A stretch of 64,000 bases of DNA, taken from Bacteroidota bacterium. Its GTDB lineage: Bacteria; Bacteroidota; Bacteroidia; Chitinophagales; LD1. Positions within the stretch are counted from its first letter, which is position 1; each line of letters opens with the position of its first letter. Location: the NCBI GenBank assembly GCA_947479455.1, contig CANJZE010000001.1, positions 45,106 to 109,105 on the forward strand, given 5' to 3'. Below, one piece after another: positions 30,994 to 63,702 of this stretch. The notes beneath the pieces were generated by a model that had not been told where the DNA came from, ran no database searches, and saw only the letters and a list, made by a program, of their open reading frames with translations. The position numbers and the translations under genes were made by a program.

Positions 30994-32592
30994 TTACTCC
31001 TTCTGCACCCGTAACGATTTACGATTTCGATTCACCGTTACTACACAGTTGTAAACTCCTTTAGAAAGCGCCTGCAAGTTCAAAACAAGTTTTTGTTTTC
31101 CTACATCAAATGTTTTCTCGCAAACAGTTTGCACCAAACTTCCTTTCATATCCAGCAACTCAATTTTTACAATTTCGCTTCGCTTCAACTCAAACTCGAT
31201 TAGTGTTTTTTCATTGGCCGGATTCGGATAGCAGAAAAAATTCAACACATCACTATTTACCTCAGCCAGAGTAGTTGTGGTATCTTCAATGGTATCCAAA
31301 TAAACTTCAAACACTCGCGGACTTGCAAAACTTTGCGCATTGGGGTTGTTATCGGCAATGTTTAAATCCATGCTTTCAATACCACCGACAATGTAGCCCA
31401 CTCGTTGATGGTTTGCCAATGCGTTCAGGTCTATAAAATGCTTTTTATACAGCGGAACGTTGAGGTCGTAGAAAAAATAGGCATTAGTTCCAAGCAAGGC
31501 AGGCATGCGAATTCCTAAATTGACTTCGTGATACGTTATGTCAAAATCCCGTACCACATCGCTCACTGTGCGCACAAATGGCACTAACGAATCATACACC
31601 GTTTGTAGCGTGAGTGTATCTAAATAATACATGCTTAATCCTCCAAAAAAAATATGATGTTGTAATAGCCCGCTGGAATCGTACATAGCACAAACCGCAC
31701 TGTGATATTGACTTAAGTTCTGATTAAAATCATTTCGAACGATTACCGTATCCTTAAAAATTTCAACCGCGTTTAAGTAAGGCAAATTAGCATGTGCTTG
31801 AAACACTCCGCTATACGCTAGCAAACTTTCGCCCCGAAAAATATCATACATCGGTAGTAGGTTAAAATCTCTTCGTCTAAAATTTGCTGTATCACGTATT
31901 GCCGCATTATTAAAAATGGCAAGATTCAATCCATTATCAGCTATCTGAAATTTTCGAATTTCATTGCTATAAGTTTGCCTTGCAATGGCAAGCACCGTAT
32001 CGGTTCTATCGTAATGTCCATCGTACCGGTGACCAAAAACAAGATAGTATGTAGAGTCCATTTTTTGCAAATGCCCACCGCAAATTGCCAATGAAGAATC
32101 GGTTATTTGTCGAAAAAAGTTTTCAATGGGTTGTTCATTTACCATCGCGCTCATGAGCCCTTTCATATTAATTGCGGTTAGCGTATGGAAAGTGATAAAG
32201 TCGCCTACGTTTTCATTCCAGCCATAACCGCCAACCATATACAATATAGAATCGTTCAAATGAAATTCCATGTTTGAAGAAGTAATGGCCTCACGAATAC
32301 TATCGGGCAAAACGTGTGTTGATACGGCCCATTGTTGGTTCACGACAGGGTCAACAATAAAAATACTGTCGTTAATTCCAGCTTCCGGAAAACCAGATGG
32401 CGGCAAAAAACCATGCAGTCCATTTTTCCTTCCACCAATAAAAAACCATTTGCTGTTGTATTCGCCAAACGCACCAGAGTGAACTGTTGGAGTAGCAGAA
32501 ATTGCAGAAGGGACTAACCGCAACGTGAAATTTTGATAAGCAAAAAGGTTTATGCTTATCATTAAAATTGCAATGACAGGTAATTTTTTCAT
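30994..32592 (-). CDS. T9SS-exported protein of unknown function (kelch-like repeats)
   Basis: 532 residues. The signal peptide MKKLPVIAILMISINLFA is followed by a long mature domain with recurring segments such as WFFIGGRKNGLHGF, LYMVGGYGWNENVG, HHIFFGGLSMYYLDT and VGYIVGGIESMDLN, each hinting at a blade of a kelch-like beta-propeller. It ends in a type A T9SS domain (FFCYPNPANEKTLIEFEL ... LSKGVYNCVVTVN). Secreted or surface-anchored. It is last in a minus-strand set with a thioesterase (18 bp) and the M16-like gene. No enzyme motif is visible. Confidence 0.75.
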   Translation of the reverse strand: MKKLPVIAILMISINLFAYQNFTLRLVPSAISATPTVHSGAFGEYNSKWFFIGGRKNGLHGFLPPSGFPEAGINDSIFIVDPVVNQQWAVSTHVLPDSIREAITSSNMEFHLNDSILYMVGGYGWNENVGDFITFHTLTAINMKGLMSAMVNEQPIENFFRQITDSSLAICGGHLQKMDSTYYLVFGHRYDGHYDRTDTVLAIARQTYSNEIRKFQIADNGLNLAIFNNAAIRDTANFRRRDFNLLPMYDIFRGESLLAYSGVFQAHANLPYLNAVEIFKDTVIVRNDFNQNLSQYHSAVCAMYDSSGLLQHHIFFGGLSMYYLDTLTLQTVYDSLVPFVRTVSDVVRDFDITYHEVNLGIRMPALLGTNAYFFYDLNVPLYKKHFIDLNALANHQRVGYIVGGIESMDLNIADNNPNAQSFASPRVFEVYLDTIEDTTTTLAEVNSDVLNFFCYPNPANEKTLIEFELKRSEIVKIELLDMKGSLVQTVCEKTFDVGKQKLVLNLQALSKGVYNCVVTVNRNRKSLRVQKE

Positions 32593-32610: not shown

Positions 32611-33126
32611 TTAACTGGTTTCAAAAAGTTTTTTGAACTCTTTGGTTTCGTGTGTCTTCATTCTTCCACCGAGCACCAAACGTAGTTCTCTACGGGCTAA
32701 AGCAGAATCAAACATTTTCATTTCTGCATCTGATTCAGGAACGAGCGTGTGGCTCTTTTTAGGTTTGCCGTTACTGTCAAGCGCTACAAAAGTGTAGTAG
32801 GCTTCATTGCATTTATAGCGCGTTTGCGAAGGAAGATTTTCGGCCCATACCTCAATGTGTGTTTCCATGGAAGTATTAAAAACGCGTGTAACCTTGGCGG
32901 TTATGGTCACCACATCGCCTAGTTTAATTGGATTTTCGAACGATACATTATCAACCGAAGCAGTTACAACCACTGCATTAGAATGTTTACCCGCAGCAAT
33001 TGCTGAAGCAATATCCATCCAGTGCAAAATTTTTCCTCCGCGTAAATTGCCTAATGCATTGGTATCGTTCGGCAAAACAATTTCAGTCATGATAACTGTT
33101 GAATCCTTTGGTGTTTTTTCTGCCAT
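32611..33126 (-). CDS. Acyl-CoA thioesterase (hotdog fold, YciA/BFIT-like)
   Basis: 171 residues. Hotdog motifs: LPNDTNALGNLRGGKILHWMDIASAIAA (catalytic Asn/Asp region, about 17-44) and VSFENPIKLGDVVTITAKVTRV. Hydrolyses acyl-CoA to free acid and CoA; chain preference is unknown. It starts 3 bp after the M16-like gene stops on the same strand, so the two are almost certainly co-transcribed. Confidence 0.9.
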   Translation of the reverse strand: MAEKTPKDSTVIMTEIVLPNDTNALGNLRGGKILHWMDIASAIAAGKHSNAVVVTASVDNVSFENPIKLGDVVTITAKVTRVFNTSMETHIEVWAENLPSQTRYKCNEAYYTFVALDSNGKPKKSHTLVPESDAEMKMFDSALARRELRLVLGGRMKTHETKEFKKLFETS

Positions 33127-33129
33127 AGT

Positions 33130-34950
33130 TTATTCTTTCTTCTTTCCGTAATGAAATTCGTATAGCGAAATTTGCTTGCGCAACTTTTCTAAGGTCACCG
33201 TGCATTTCAAATTACCAATAGCTTCTTCCCTACTGGCTGAAGTAAACTTCATGCTCGTGCCCGATAATCTTTCGGGTGCAATGCCCTGGTCATAAAAATA
33301 TTTGATGAGTTTCATAGCGCGCATCATCTCAGGACGTAGGTATCCCTTTCTAATAAATTCAGGCATTGCACGACTGAAAGTAGGAATAGAATCAATGAAA
33401 GCCTTAATCGAATCGTCAAACACCTTATTGAATTCTCCTTCATCAGCAAATCCGTTGACCTGTAAATTTACGTCATCATTAATGCGCAACCATTGCAACA
33501 AATTTCGAAGTTTGGTAGAGTCTTCTTTCGATTCTATATCCGTGACATTTTGACGATAAGTAAACACATATAGGTTTACGCTGTCGTTTAAATTAGTAAA
33601 CAGCGAATCAACTTTTAACTCCTCTCTATCTTGCGGGCTTACAAGCAAACCGGTAACGTGCGGGTTTTGATTCATATAAAAGACAACGAAATTTTTCAGT
33701 TGCTTTTCGCTAATGACCAGCAAACTATCGAGCAGTGATGGAAAATAAGTTTCGTCATTTCCTGCCCAATGTTTTACAACCCATTGTGGGTACTCATTTG
33801 ATTTTTCAAGACTCTGATACTCTTTTTTAAACTGCACTTTGCCCGCAGTAATCATCGATTCATTAACAATCGTTTTTTCTAATCGTTGTAACTCTGTAAC
33901 CACCATAGAATACGCACTAAACCAATTGGCGCGGTCGGTTTGCAGTACTATATGTAACACACCACTATAGTTATTCACTTCATATTGTGCCAGCAGTTTT
34001 TTGCAATGAAGTTTTGCGGCTTTTACTTGAATAAAATTGTTTTTGTCGTTCAGCATGGCACTCAACAAATAACCACACCGGCTCGCCTGCTCATTTGCTG
34101 CAGTACCCGTAAACTGCCAGCAAATATGAAACTCGGGCGATGCAGTTGTATCCTCCACAATAAACTGAGTGGTATACACCATGGGTTTAAAGTCCACCAC
34201 TTTTGTTACTGTTTCTGGATCGAACTCACTTTTTACGATTGACTTAAAAGCCGATTCTAAATGCACTTGAAGCGTTTCAAGTGCAAAATTTCCGGTGGCA
34301 GCAATCAGTGTATTATTAGGAACGTAATATTTTTTATAAAAAAATCGAACAATGGGCAATGAAATATTATCAAACTCATTGATGTTGCCTGTTACACTTA
34401 GCTTTTCAAATTCACTTCGATAAATATGTTGAGTTAATCGGCTCTCCATATTTTTTCGCGGGTCTTTTGTAGCCAGCTCCACATCGTTAACAATATTTTG
34501 TTTCACATTATTTAGTTCAGCAGAAGTAATGGAAGCAGTAAGAACCGAATCGCGGAATAGATTAAAACAACTAATCAAATTAGATGGAGTTACTGTAAAC
34601 TTATAGACGCATCGTTCTGTGGTTGTGTACGCATTGAACGTGGTATTTTGAAACGAGATTGCACCTTTATTGCTTCGTAAAAACCTAGCCACCTTATCGG
34701 CTAAAATATTTTGAACAATGTTTGAGATACCGCTCAACGAATCTATTTCATATATACTTCCGTTTTTTATAAAAAAACTCACCTCCACTTGTTTAGCGCT
34801 AGCATCAGCCATCAATACGGTGTTCATGCCGTTTCCCAGTTTTATGTAAAACAAATCGCCAGCCTTGGTGGTTTCTGATTGTGCATTTACCTGTCCTGTG
34901 GTTGCATAGTAAAAAACGAACAAAAGAAAAATGGATTGAAATATTTTCAT
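33130..34950 (-). CDS. M16-like pseudopeptidase fused to an OmpA-like C-terminal domain
   Basis: 606 residues with a signal peptide (1-23). Residues about 30-430 follow the M16 (insulinase/pitrilysin) fold: LGNGMNTVLMADASAKQVEVSFFIKNGS, a tract at the catalytic helix, and YYVPNNTLIAATGNF. The HxxEH zinc motif is replaced by NIVQN within GISNIVQNIL, so it cannot bind zinc in the usual way. Residues about 455-606 resemble an OmpA-type peptidoglycan-binding domain: LLQWLRINDDVNLQVNGFADEGEFN, then MMRAMKLIKYFYDQGIAPERL. A periplasmic scaffold tethered to the wall is an attractive inference. It has a good promoter and is followed by the thioesterase after 3 bp. Confidence 0.7.
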   Translation of the reverse strand: MKIFQSIFLLFVFYYATTGQVNAQSETTKAGDLFYIKLGNGMNTVLMADASAKQVEVSFFIKNGSIYEIDSLSGISNIVQNILADKVARFLRSNKGAISFQNTTFNAYTTTERCVYKFTVTPSNLISCFNLFRDSVLTASITSAELNNVKQNIVNDVELATKDPRKNMESRLTQHIYRSEFEKLSVTGNINEFDNISLPIVRFFYKKYYVPNNTLIAATGNFALETLQVHLESAFKSIVKSEFDPETVTKVVDFKPMVYTTQFIVEDTTASPEFHICWQFTGTAANEQASRCGYLLSAMLNDKNNFIQVKAAKLHCKKLLAQYEVNNYSGVLHIVLQTDRANWFSAYSMVVTELQRLEKTIVNESMITAGKVQFKKEYQSLEKSNEYPQWVVKHWAGNDETYFPSLLDSLLVISEKQLKNFVVFYMNQNPHVTGLLVSPQDREELKVDSLFTNLNDSVNLYVFTYRQNVTDIESKEDSTKLRNLLQWLRINDDVNLQVNGFADEGEFNKVFDDSIKAFIDSIPTFSRAMPEFIRKGYLRPEMMRAMKLIKYFYDQGIAPERLSGTSMKFTSASREEAIGNLKCTVTLEKLRKQISLYEFHYGKKKE

Positions 34951-35003: not shown

Positions 35004-36233
35004 TTAATTTTGCATTGCTCTCATTCGCTGCAAAAATGTAGGATGCGAATAGTTCACAAAAACATAGGCGCTATCGGGTTGTAAATTACCCAAATGTTTT
35101 ACGGTTAACTTTCGTAAAGCAGAAATGAGCGGAACTGCACTATACGTTTCTTTAGCATAAGCATCAGCTTCATATTCATTTTTTCGGCTGAATAAATTCA
35201 TAAGCAAGCCGGTGATTAATGAAACCGGTGAATACAACAATGAAAAACTTATCAGCGAAAGATGAAATGAATTTTGCTTTGCTCCCAACACTTCTGCCAT
35301 TACAGAACTATTAGCCACTAAGCCAAAAACAAAAAAAAGTATGGCTATCTGAATAATTGAAACGGTGGCAATTTGTAAAACATGCTTATGCTTATAATGG
35401 CCCACTTCATGTGCCAACACAGCGGTAATTTCTTCTACGGTCATATCCTGAATGAGAGTATCATAAAGTACAATATTTTTTTTGTGACCTAGTCCGCTAA
35501 AAAAAGCATTTGATTTTGATGAGCGCTTTGAACCATCCATCACTAAAATATTTGTCAATGGAAAGTTTACTTGTGCGGCATATTTCTCAATTGATGAACG
35601 CAACTCTCCTTCTTCTAACGGAAGCAGTTTATTGAAAAGCGGAAGTAAAACGTTTACTGAAAACATAGCCGCCAAAATCATGATTATAGAAACCAAAGCC
35701 CAACCAGCCAGCCAGAATTTACTACCGAGCAAACCAAAAAGAAATGTGAGCAGTGCTAGAATTCCTCCGCCTACAACAGTACCAAGCGCAAGCATTTTTA
35801 ATTTATCGGTTACAAAAAGCAACGGAGTAGTTTTATTAAAACCGAATTTTTCTTCAACCACAAACGTACTATACAACTCAAAAGGCATGGAGATAACCGA
35901 AGAAGCCAATGAAAGAATACCAAAGAAAAGCAGACACTGTATAATAGGCGAATCGAAATACGAGCGAACTAAGTCATCTACCCATGCAAAACCTTTGAGG
36001 TATAAAAATGCAAGAGTGATAATCAATGAAAGCGTAGCGGAGATAGTTCCAATTTTATTATTGATTACGGCATAGTCACGCGCCTTTTTGTATTCGGTGG
36101 GGTCATACAAGTCTTTCACTTCGTTAGGTAGAGGCTTATCCCACGTTTGCATATTCAACCAAGACAAAGTTTTGGAAAGAACAAATTCGAATAGTATGAA
36201 AAATATGACGAGATAAAGTAGCGTAGCCGCCAT
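35004..36233 (-). CDS. M48-family CAAX prenyl protease 1-like (Ste24) metalloprotease
   Basis: 409 residues with about seven membrane helices. The zinc motif is VLAHEVGHYKHKHVLQ (HExxH, about 275), with the third ligand Glu in KNEYEADAYAKE. The N-terminal membrane part and the sequence VEEKFGFNKTTPLLFVTDKLK are typical of Ste24-type enzymes. In bacteria this class degrades misfolded or translocon-stalled membrane proteins, since prenylated CAAX substrates are lacking. A minus-strand TACATTCGC box lies 13 bp before the ATG. Confidence 0.94.
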   Translation of the reverse strand: MAATLLYLVIFFILFEFVLSKTLSWLNMQTWDKPLPNEVKDLYDPTEYKKARDYAVINNKIGTISATLSLIITLAFLYLKGFAWVDDLVRSYFDSPIIQCLLFFGILSLASSVISMPFELYSTFVVEEKFGFNKTTPLLFVTDKLKMLALGTVVGGGILALLTFLFGLLGSKFWLAGWALVSIIMILAAMFSVNVLLPLFNKLLPLEEGELRSSIEKYAAQVNFPLTNILVMDGSKRSSKSNAFFSGLGHKKNIVLYDTLIQDMTVEEITAVLAHEVGHYKHKHVLQIATVSIIQIAILFFVFGLVANSSVMAEVLGAKQNSFHLSLISFSLLYSPVSLITGLLMNLFSRKNEYEADAYAKETYSAVPLISALRKLTVKHLGNLQPDSAYVFVNYSHPTFLQRMRAMQN

Positions 36234-60645: not shown

Positions 60646-63600
60646 ATGAAAAAGTTATTTACTCCGGTTTTCTTTTTCTGTTCTTTATTCCTTACTGCTC
60701 AAAACCCCTTTTCCTTTACCAACTCAAATGCAAAATTCGTAAACGCTGCTTTTCATAGTGGAAACTGCGTAAGCGTGGTAGATATGAATAGTGATGGAAT
60801 GGACGACCTTGCCCGACTTAGTCAGGGTGATGACGTTTATTATACCATTCAACGCACCAACCAAACCTTTAATAATATTCATGCAGTTGCTACCGGTCTA
60901 GGTGGCGCATGGGGTATGGTTGTAGCAGATGTAGATAACAATGGAGTTCGCGATGTAGCCATTGGTTCAGGTAGCCAAGCACGTGTAGTTACCGCAAACA
61001 CTGCGCTAACTACTTTTTCTATTACAGCAAATTTACCAAGGCCTTCTACTTTCTTTCCTCAAAACATGAACTTTGCCGATATAGATAATGACGGCATGGT
61101 TGATTTATTTGTTTGCAATGACGATGCTGCAGGAGTTATGTGGAAGAATGTTGCAGGGTCTTATCCCGCTACTACAAACTTTTTCAGTGTAAACAATCCC
61201 GGCACCGATAACAGTGGAAACTACGGAAGTATTTGGACTGATATTGATAATGACGGAGATATTGATTTTTACATTGCGCACTGTCGTCAGGGAACACCTT
61301 CAGGCGATGCCCGTAGATTAGATCAACTTTTTATTAATGATGGCGCAGGCAATTACACTTTGGATGCTGCCAACGCACGCGGCTTACGAAACACCGCCAT
61401 GACATGGACAGCAAGTTTTGATGATATTGATAACGATGGTGACTTGGATTGTGTTTTAACTGAAACGGATAAATCGAGCGAGTTATTTGTGAACGATGGC
61501 AATGGTTATTTCACCGACATTACAGCCGGAAGCGGTTTTGTTTTAGATATTACCCCTTACCAATCTAAAATGGAAGACTTAGACAATGATGGTTTTGTTG
61601 ACATTATTATTTCGGGCGATGATTCGCGAATATTTCATAACAACCACGACCACACCTTTACTCTTGTTAGCGGATTGTTCGACAACAACGCCATGCTTTC
61701 ATTTGCTACGGGCGATTTAAATCACGATGGCAAAATCGACCTGTATTCCACTTACGGTACGGTGTATAACAACCCTACAAATACCGATGATGTTCTTTGG
61801 CTCAACAGCACAAACAACGGCAACCACTTTGTAACTTTCAATTTGCAAGGAACAGTGAGCAATCGCGATGCACTGGGTGCTCGTGTTGAAATTTATGGTG
61901 CTTGGGGAAAACAAATTCGTGAAGTGCGAGCTGGCGAAAGTTACGGAACTACCAATTCATTTCAATGCCATTTCGGTTTAGGTACAGCTACTACTATTGA
62001 TTCTGTAATTGTTCGTTGGCCAAAAGGTTTGGTTACTCATATAGCCAATCCTGCTGCCGACCAATTCATTACCGTAATTGAAGGTCAATGTTACTCTGCC
62101 GATAACGTAATAGGTTATAGCGGTCCATCGGCACTTTGCGCGGGACAATCTGTAACCTTAACTGCACCAGCTGGTCATCAGTATCTTTGGAGCACAGGTG
62201 ATACTACACAAACGTTGACTGTTTCTACCACAGGTGAATTCAACGTTAAATTGATTGACGGAAGCGGTTGTTCAAACATTTCAAAAACAGTAACTATTCT
62301 ATCTCAACCCGATGAAACACCTACTATTTCAGCCGCAGCAGCTACTGTATTTTGCGAAGGCGATAGCGTGTTGTTGCAAGGTTCTACCGCTGCAAGTTAT
62401 TTATGGAGTAACGGAGCAACCACGCAAAATATTTATGCGAAAGATGCAGGAACGTATACCCTAACCATTCAGGGAACATGTGCGCCCTTCACATCTTCAG
62501 GAATTACACTTGCACCTATTGCATCGCACGTGGCAAGTATTGTTGAAGCAAGCACCTGCGAAGGAAGCGGAGCAACAATAAACCTAAGCGCAACCACCAC
62601 TGGAACTTCTTACTGGTATGATTCAGCAACGAACGGAACGATTGTAAACACAGGAACCACATACGCTACTTCTCCAATTGCAACAACAACTTATTATGTT
62701 GAATCACACGATAGCTTGTTTGGCTTTTCGGGTCATGTTGGCCCGGCAGATAATGCGATAGGCACGGGAAGCTATTTTACAGGAGACCAGTATCAAATTT
62801 TTGATGTGGTAAAGGCATGTGTTCTGCGTTCGGTATTAGTGTTTTCCGATTCAGCTAAAACACGGATAATTGAATTACGCGATAACGCGGGTACAATTCT
62901 TCAAGCCGATACAGTAGATATTGCGGTGGGCACTTTTACAATTCCCTTAAACTTTAACTTAACTCCCGGAAACAATTATCATTTAGGTTGGGCTTCGGGT
63001 ACACGACCTCATTTGTTTAGAAACGATGGCGGTGTTTCTTATCCTTATAATATCAACAACTTAATTTCGGTAACCGCCAGTTCGGCCGGCACAAGTCGTT
63101 GGTATGCCTACTACAACTGGTTTGTAGAAGAAGATCCTATTACATGTTCTTCTACTCGCACTCCCGTTACTGCTACAGTTAATCCAAACCCTGCCGTTAG
63201 TTTAAGCGGCTTGAATGCTACATACCTTAACACCGATGCAACTGTTACTGTTAGCGGAACTCCTTCAGGCGGAACCTTTACGGGAACAGGTGTTACCGGA
63301 ACAACATTTGACCCTGCGACTGCGGGCGTTGGCGGACCTTATACGGTTTCTTACTCTTACACCGATGGCAATGGATGCAGCGCAACTACTTCATTTGATG
63401 TTACTGTTGCACAGGATACTACTTCAGTAGGTTTTGTAAAACTAGAAGGTATTTCAGGAGTAAATGTTTATCCGAATCCGAATAGCGGTTCATTTGCAGT
63501 TACTTTCAAAACTGTTGGCGATGTAAAAGTTGACATCAGTTTGACAAATGAAATCGGTCAGAAAATTTTCGAAGAGAAAAATGTACTGGTTTCTAATTCA

Positions 63601-63702
63601 TTTGTTAAACCATTACATATGGAGCAAGTGGCTAAGGGAATCTACCAACTCAACATTACTTCAGGCAAACAGAAGAATACTTACAAAGTAATTATTCAAT
63701 AA
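60646..63702 (+). CDS. Large T9SS-exported FG-GAP/ASPIC-UnbV repeat protein
   Basis: 1018 residues. Signal peptide (1-18), then about six FG-GAP/VCBS-type repeats (about 35-400) each with Dx(D/N)xDGxxD calcium motifs such as DMNSDGMDDLA, DIDNDGDIDFYI, DLDNDGFVDIIIS and DLNHDGKIDLYS. An ASPIC/UnbV domain follows (about 405-480; RDALGARVEIYGAWGKQIREVRAGESYG). Ig-like or PKD-like repeats fill about 500-930, and the end is a type A T9SS sorting domain (VYPNPNSGSFAVTFKTVG ... VAKGIYQLNITSG). Surface or secreted, likely an adhesin or a CRTAC1-like binding protein. Its own terminator follows. Confidence 0.88.
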   Translation: MKKLFTPVFFFCSLFLTAQNPFSFTNSNAKFVNAAFHSGNCVSVVDMNSDGMDDLARLSQGDDVYYTIQRTNQTFNNIHAVATGLGGAWGMVVADVDNNGVRDVAIGSGSQARVVTANTALTTFSITANLPRPSTFFPQNMNFADIDNDGMVDLFVCNDDAAGVMWKNVAGSYPATTNFFSVNNPGTDNSGNYGSIWTDIDNDGDIDFYIAHCRQGTPSGDARRLDQLFINDGAGNYTLDAANARGLRNTAMTWTASFDDIDNDGDLDCVLTETDKSSELFVNDGNGYFTDITAGSGFVLDITPYQSKMEDLDNDGFVDIIISGDDSRIFHNNHDHTFTLVSGLFDNNAMLSFATGDLNHDGKIDLYSTYGTVYNNPTNTDDVLWLNSTNNGNHFVTFNLQGTVSNRDALGARVEIYGAWGKQIREVRAGESYGTTNSFQCHFGLGTATTIDSVIVRWPKGLVTHIANPAADQFITVIEGQCYSADNVIGYSGPSALCAGQSVTLTAPAGHQYLWSTGDTTQTLTVSTTGEFNVKLIDGSGCSNISKTVTILSQPDETPTISAAAATVFCEGDSVLLQGSTAASYLWSNGATTQNIYAKDAGTYTLTIQGTCAPFTSSGITLAPIASHVASIVEASTCEGSGATINLSATTTGTSYWYDSATNGTIVNTGTTYATSPIATTTYYVESHDSLFGFSGHVGPADNAIGTGSYFTGDQYQIFDVVKACVLRSVLVFSDSAKTRIIELRDNAGTILQADTVDIAVGTFTIPLNFNLTPGNNYHLGWASGTRPHLFRNDGGVSYPYNINNLISVTASSAGTSRWYAYYNWFVEEDPITCSSTRTPVTATVNPNPAVSLSGLNATYLNTDATVTVSGTPSGGTFTGTGVTGTTFDPATAGVGGPYTVSYSYTDGNGCSATTSFDVTVAQDTTSVGFVKLEGISGVNVYPNPNSGSFAVTFKTVGDVKVDISLTNEIGQKIFEEKNVLVSNSFVKPLHMEQVAKGIYQLNITSGKQKNTYKVIIQ

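Follow-up and report, generated by a model that had tools for sequence, protein, structure and literature searches.

An M16 pseudopeptidase with an OmpA-like tail in one family of Chitinophagales, probably a wall-bound scaffold

Introduction

The question raised by the locus described here is what an M16 peptidase fold that has lost its zinc site can be doing in a protein that ends in an OmpA-like domain. In M16B pairs, the inactive subunit supplies an Arg/Tyr pair. Most M16 pseudopeptidases on record assist an active subunit or belong to respiratory complexes. The gene lies in a window (the whole stretch of DNA that was analysed, 64,000 nucleotides in length) for which a first-pass annotation had claimed that the catalytic HxxEH is replaced by NIVQN, that an OmpA-like tail follows, and that no active partner is adjacent. 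It had hinted at an M16 pair in which this protein would be the inactive member, suggested a wall-anchored chaperone or scaffold, and proposed that the structure be predicted and that the substitution and the fusion be sought across Bacteroidota.

Results and discussion

A probably exported protein with a complete M16 fold

The gene and the parts that precede its tail are as follows.

33130..34950, reverse strand: whole gene, an M16 pseudopeptidase with an OmpA-like tail, 606 amino acids with an ATG start (open reading frame, Pfam, model, Foldseek)
34879..34950, reverse strand: probable signal peptide, residues 1-24 (...QVNA/QS), without a lipobox cysteine (by eye from the sequence; helix at residues 2-21 in the AlphaFold model)
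33616..34878, reverse strand: M16 region, residues 25-445, comprising the M16 N- and C-domains (Pfam, Foldseek)

The protein belongs to the M16 family by fold, since both M16 domains are recognized by Pfam (PF00675 over residues 45-184 at 2e-13, and PF05193 over residues 200-360 at 3.7e-9) and by Foldseek, which matches the predicted structure to 3ami, 3eoq, 4nnz, MPP-beta and the bc1 core proteins with E-values of about 1e-23 to 1e-25. This AlphaFold model, for which 26 aligned sequences served as input, has a mean pLDDT of 89 and a pTM of 0.83 over the whole protein, and it gives the full M16 fold together with a tail of OmpA fold. Residues 1-24 are the fastest-diverging part of the protein (pN 0.28 vs 0.08), and the protein is probably exported and periplasmic. 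Neither PF18962 nor TIGR04183, which mark the C-terminal sorting domain of type IX secretion system (T9SS) cargo, matches the 606-residue protein. A scan for promoters and terminators gave no signal above that of shuffled sequences.

The zinc site is lost throughout the family

34708..34722, reverse strand: zinc site in degenerate form, residues 77-81, where NIVQN stands for HxxEH (alignment with active relatives)

The replacement of HxxEH by NIVQN is confirmed by alignment, in which GISNIVQNILA of the query stands against GLSHLYEHMFF of active relatives, and it extends to the third zinc ligand, which is Glu in the active relatives and Asp156 in the query; the protein thus lacks both the HxxEH motif and the downstream Glu ligand of a catalytic M16 peptidase. 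The loss is also family-wide: in the query's taxonomic family (f1), the zinc site is gone in all 22 of the sequences that cover it, with ten different residues at position 77 and never a Glu at position 80. A zinc motif placed elsewhere in the protein, the other possibility that had been raised, was sought as HxxEH or HxxEN and was found in none of the f1 proteins scanned. Because the residues of the site vary freely within the family, the site is, on the evidence of the alignment, released from constraint, and the Asn/Gln/Asn set of amides in the query is no conserved device.

These observations bear directly on the idea that proteolysis persists through an unusual metal site, or else that the gene is decaying. 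The changes of His to Asn, Glu to Gln and His to Asn do look conservative, but only in the query sequence; the free variation among relatives and the lack of any other HxxEH speak against a protease, and a dN/dS of 0.08 and the intact reading frames of the complete orthologues count against decay, so that we regard this explanation in either form as highly improbable. The ratio is 0.077 in the M16 part for the closest pair of sequences, an approximate value given that synonymous sites are near saturation, and the tail of the same pair has even fewer replacements. All f1 genomes of 90% completeness or more contain the gene, though one has just a fragment of it at the edge of a contig. By these comparisons it is under purifying selection, with the tail as its most constrained part. 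In one metagenome-assembled genome the orthologue occupies two frames (L010 and L038) that are split at unresolved bases, which is probably an assembly gap.

A probable degenerate catalytic subunit without an adjacent partner

33973..34020, reverse strand: residues 311-326 (AAKLHCKKLLAQYEVN), counterpart of the stretch that holds the M16 Arg/Tyr pair; the pair is absent (alignment with partners that bear the pair)

The inactive member of an M16B pair is recognized here by an Arg/Tyr pair in its C-terminal domain. This pair completes the M16 active site (PMC12731061). In the present alignment it is carried by inactive partners (ELRTKRSLSY, NIREEKGYTY), and partner genes of the order show it plainly (ELRTKRSLSYAP, NIREEKGYTYGI); it is missing in the query and in the rest of f1, as it likewise is in catalytic subunits. 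A tree of 44 M16 regions, whose branches are long and in which the order of splits within the HLYEH clade is uncertain, places f1 inside the clade of HLYEH catalytic subunits (96/95) and away from the partners that carry the pair. The hint of an inactive partner thus finds no support, since the Arg/Tyr pair is absent and the tree groups the query with catalytic subunits. We read the protein, from these alignments and this tree, as a degenerate catalytic subunit and not as the usual inactive partner.

No M16 gene adjoins the query in the window or adjoins its counterparts in f1 relatives, and a search of 30 f1 genomes turned up no dedicated Arg/Tyr partner encoded by a gene of its own. The window's genome does encode a generic M16 pair on another contig (C22, locus L142), in which an HLFEH protein of 435 amino acids and a partner of 427 amino acids (NIREEKGYTY) are adjacent, as well as one M16 protein of 1047 amino acids.

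It could be supposed that the query nevertheless contributes the inactive half to a working M16B heterodimer and tethers the 435-residue HLFEH protein to the wall much as MPP-alpha serves MPP-beta. M16B proteins usually dimerise (PMC12731061), the HLFEH subunit is encoded in the same genome, and the absence of the Arg/Tyr pair does not by itself exclude a partnership, since it is missing from MPP-alpha and the bc1 core proteins too. The HLFEH subunit, however, already has its own adjacent partner with the pair, the query has no such pair and groups with catalytic subunits instead of partners, and the M16 half falls to about 20% identity within f1, a greater divergence than we would expect for a subunit of an obligate heterodimer. 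A tethering role of this kind is accordingly unlikely.

The tail has an OmpA fold and its Asp/Arg pair

33166..33585, reverse strand: OmpA-like domain, residues about 456-595 (Pfam in relatives, tail profile, model, Foldseek)
33442..33444, reverse strand: Asp503, equivalent of PorE Asp576 and A. baumannii OmpA Asp271 (profile alignment)
33319..33321, reverse strand: Arg544, equivalent of PorE Arg591 and A. baumannii OmpA Arg286 (profile alignment)

The assignment of the tail to the OmpA-like domains, which the first-pass annotation had made from the sequence pattern, is upheld by several lines of evidence. With the query alone PF00691 did not reach E<1 in Pfam, and it matches 13 of the 26 aligned relatives with a best value of 1.7e-5; a profile of the tail retrieves MotB and the OmpA domain of PorE with E-values of 0.002-0.003. 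A separate AlphaFold model of residues 441-606 (pLDDT 82) has the expected strands and helices, and Foldseek matches it to Pal, PorE and MotB with E-values of 1e-6 and a TM-score to the target of up to 0.77. The region is thus predicted to have the OmpA fold.

The two residues with which domains of this fold hold diaminopimelate are also present, as Asp503 and Arg544 are invariant in all 26 sequences. Their equivalence to Asp271 and Arg286 of A. baumannii OmpA we take from the motif, and their PorE counterparts were assigned as Asp576 and Arg591 from the spacing of those residues. The spacing in the query is 41 instead of 15, and between the two residues there is an insertion of about 26 residues (FIDSIPTFRKAMPDxxKKGYLRPEM) which is well conserved in f1. 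In the crystal structure of PorE, Asp576 and Arg591 hold diaminopimelate (PMC7192894), and Asp271 and Arg286 are the peptidoglycan-binding residues of A. baumannii OmpA (PMC7573547).

In the remoter genera of f1 the tail is 38-54% identical, as compared with 19-23% for the M16 part. This much slower evolution of the tail, together with the conservation of the insertion, is what would be expected if the tail were the functional part, with the insertion as a docking place for some other protein of the envelope, and with the M16 half serving mostly as a passive spacer. We consider that arrangement improbable, because the M16 half is also under purifying selection (the dN/dS of 0.077 given above) and has kept the full M16 fold.

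The neighbouring genes do not point to a pathway

32611..33126, reverse strand: acyl-CoA thioesterase (YciA-like, 4HBT), beginning 3 bp past the M16-OmpA stop codon, downstream and on the same strand
35004..36233, reverse strand: M48 CAAX-type metallopeptidase, 53 bp upstream

In 15 f1 relatives the thioesterase gene is a co-oriented neighbour, and in other families it also lies beside the M16-OmpA gene, but in the opposite orientation. As a functional partner it was rejected: it is a conserved neighbour in f1, but of cytosolic type and without a mechanistic link. The M48 protease was rejected as well, since its conservation does not extend past the two closest relatives, and it is probably outside the system. 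Neither gene points to a pathway.

Several further observations concern the window and loci in other families. Two genes downstream from the query, at 30994-32592 on the reverse strand, the window encodes a 532-residue protein with a type IX C-terminal sorting domain, which is conserved at that place only in the two nearest relatives, and at 60646-63702 on the forward strand it encodes a 1018-residue protein with FG-GAP repeats, an ASPIC/UnbV domain, an Ig-like domain and a type IX sorting tail. In families f20, f22 and f7 (loci L081, L082 and L084-L091), a Methyltransf_24 or O-methyltransferase-like gene stands beside the M16-OmpA gene on the same strand, with one small gene between the two in L091; it is absent from that place in f1. 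In L090 (family f6) the methyltransferase precedes a 430-residue frame at the contig end which has only a weak match and no Pfam match.

Another proposal is that the protein acts as a holder or chaperone on the wall, with a half-shell that would bind unfolded or transiting substrates of the outer membrane or of the type IX system. A probable periplasmic location, a wall anchor and a fold built for extended peptides would all suit this role, but a lone half-shell without a dimer partner encloses no chamber, and no gene for a chaperone or T9SS component is linked to the M16-OmpA gene; we think it quite unlikely. The scaffold, one of the two roles first suggested for a wall-anchored protein, fits the invariant Asp/Arg pair.

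Distribution and origin of the fusion

Relatives detected by the tail profile occur in 40 of 299 genomes searched in the order Chitinophagales, in 11 of the 140 genera among them, and belong to families f1, f7, f15, f20 and f22, with a weak partial match in f6. Fusions with an intact HLYEH are found in f7 (L091) and f15 (L092), and in the former the Arg/Tyr partner gene comes directly after the fusion. In f22, a tail-less pair of HLYEH subunit and partner coexists with a zinc-less M16-OmpA gene. The two are neighbours in convergent orientation at L086 (2100-6624) and L087 (1700-6224), where the pair, with HLYEH and Arg/Tyr, is an active one and the zinc-less gene has lost the OmpA Asp too. Since this Asp is replaced in f22 (TAHKSEL, KAYKSEL), wall binding as judged from the residue does not extend to every M16-OmpA protein.

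In a tree with five ordinary OmpA domains of the window's genome, the M16-linked tails form one clade (100/99). This single clade fits one fusion event, after which catalysis would have been lost. Among 396 genomes of the class and 393 of the phylum, which were surveyed by the tail profile only, so that remote fusions could be missed, there were just two weak matches, with E-values of about 1e-8.

The most probable role of the protein

The anatomy of the protein is well supported, while we infer its function. The explanation that we prefer, with moderate confidence, is that the protein is a secreted periplasmic pseudopeptidase, which is to say a catalytic-type M16B subunit without its zinc ligands, its catalytic Glu or its partner, held on peptidoglycan by an OmpA-like domain as a wall-bound scaffold or adaptor. 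The protein would be exported to the periplasm, where the OmpA domain, judging from its fold and its Asp/Arg pair, would grip diaminopimelate in the wall, and the M16 half, still folded though no longer catalytic, may bind a peptide or protein without cutting it, which would make the whole a scaffold or adaptor bound to the wall. In broader terms it probably cuts nothing and serves as a scaffold or as a binder of peptides.

Each of the two modules is familiar by itself. For their fusion, which the first-pass annotation did not recognize, a search of open-access full text gave no description, and it gave none of a catalytic-side M16 pseudopeptidase with a wall anchor. The dead copy considered here is, on our reading, of catalytic-side origin and is fixed throughout a bacterial family along with a tail predicted to bind the wall, and it must therefore have a selected function other than cutting. 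A more tentative proposal, which may or may not prove correct, is that these proteins form a new class, in which an M16-OmpA enzyme of one lineage abandoned both proteolysis and its partner and took on the role of a receptor or scaffold bound to peptidoglycan, where the OmpA insertion would serve for docking. The presence of active and inactive fusions in one order allows direct comparison and makes the change testable.

Comparison with known systems

With the prokaryotic M16B peptidases (Sphingomonas SPH2681/2682, Thermus TTHA1264/1265 and BHP of Bacillus halodurans), the query has its Pfam domains in common and the same fold over about 420 residues (Foldseek E-values of 1e-22 to 1e-24); unlike them, it has no HxxEH, third ligand, Arg/Tyr pair or adjacent partner, and it has an additional OmpA-like domain. 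MPP-alpha and the bc1 core proteins resemble it in having an M16 fold with neither a zinc motif nor an Arg/Tyr pair (PMC11266112, PMC12731061). They are found in mitochondrial complexes with an M16 partner, whereas the query is bacterial and probably secreted, ends in a tail predicted to bind the wall, and falls among catalytic subunits in the tree.

The nearest M16 relatives by the tree are the HLYEH pairs L086, L087 and L136-L141 and the active fusions L091 and L092 of the order. They differ from the query in keeping HLYEH, and a partner gene of the Arg/Tyr type adjoins all of them except L092; the OmpA tail is common to the query and the two active fusions. The tail, finally, has the fold of the OmpA_C-like domain of the T9SS protein PorE (PDB 6top) and of Pal and OmpA, together with the Asp/Arg pair by which such domains hold diaminopimelate, and it differs from them in being fused to an M16 region, in the roughly 26 residues that are inserted between its Asp and its Arg, and in belonging to a protein without a lipobox.
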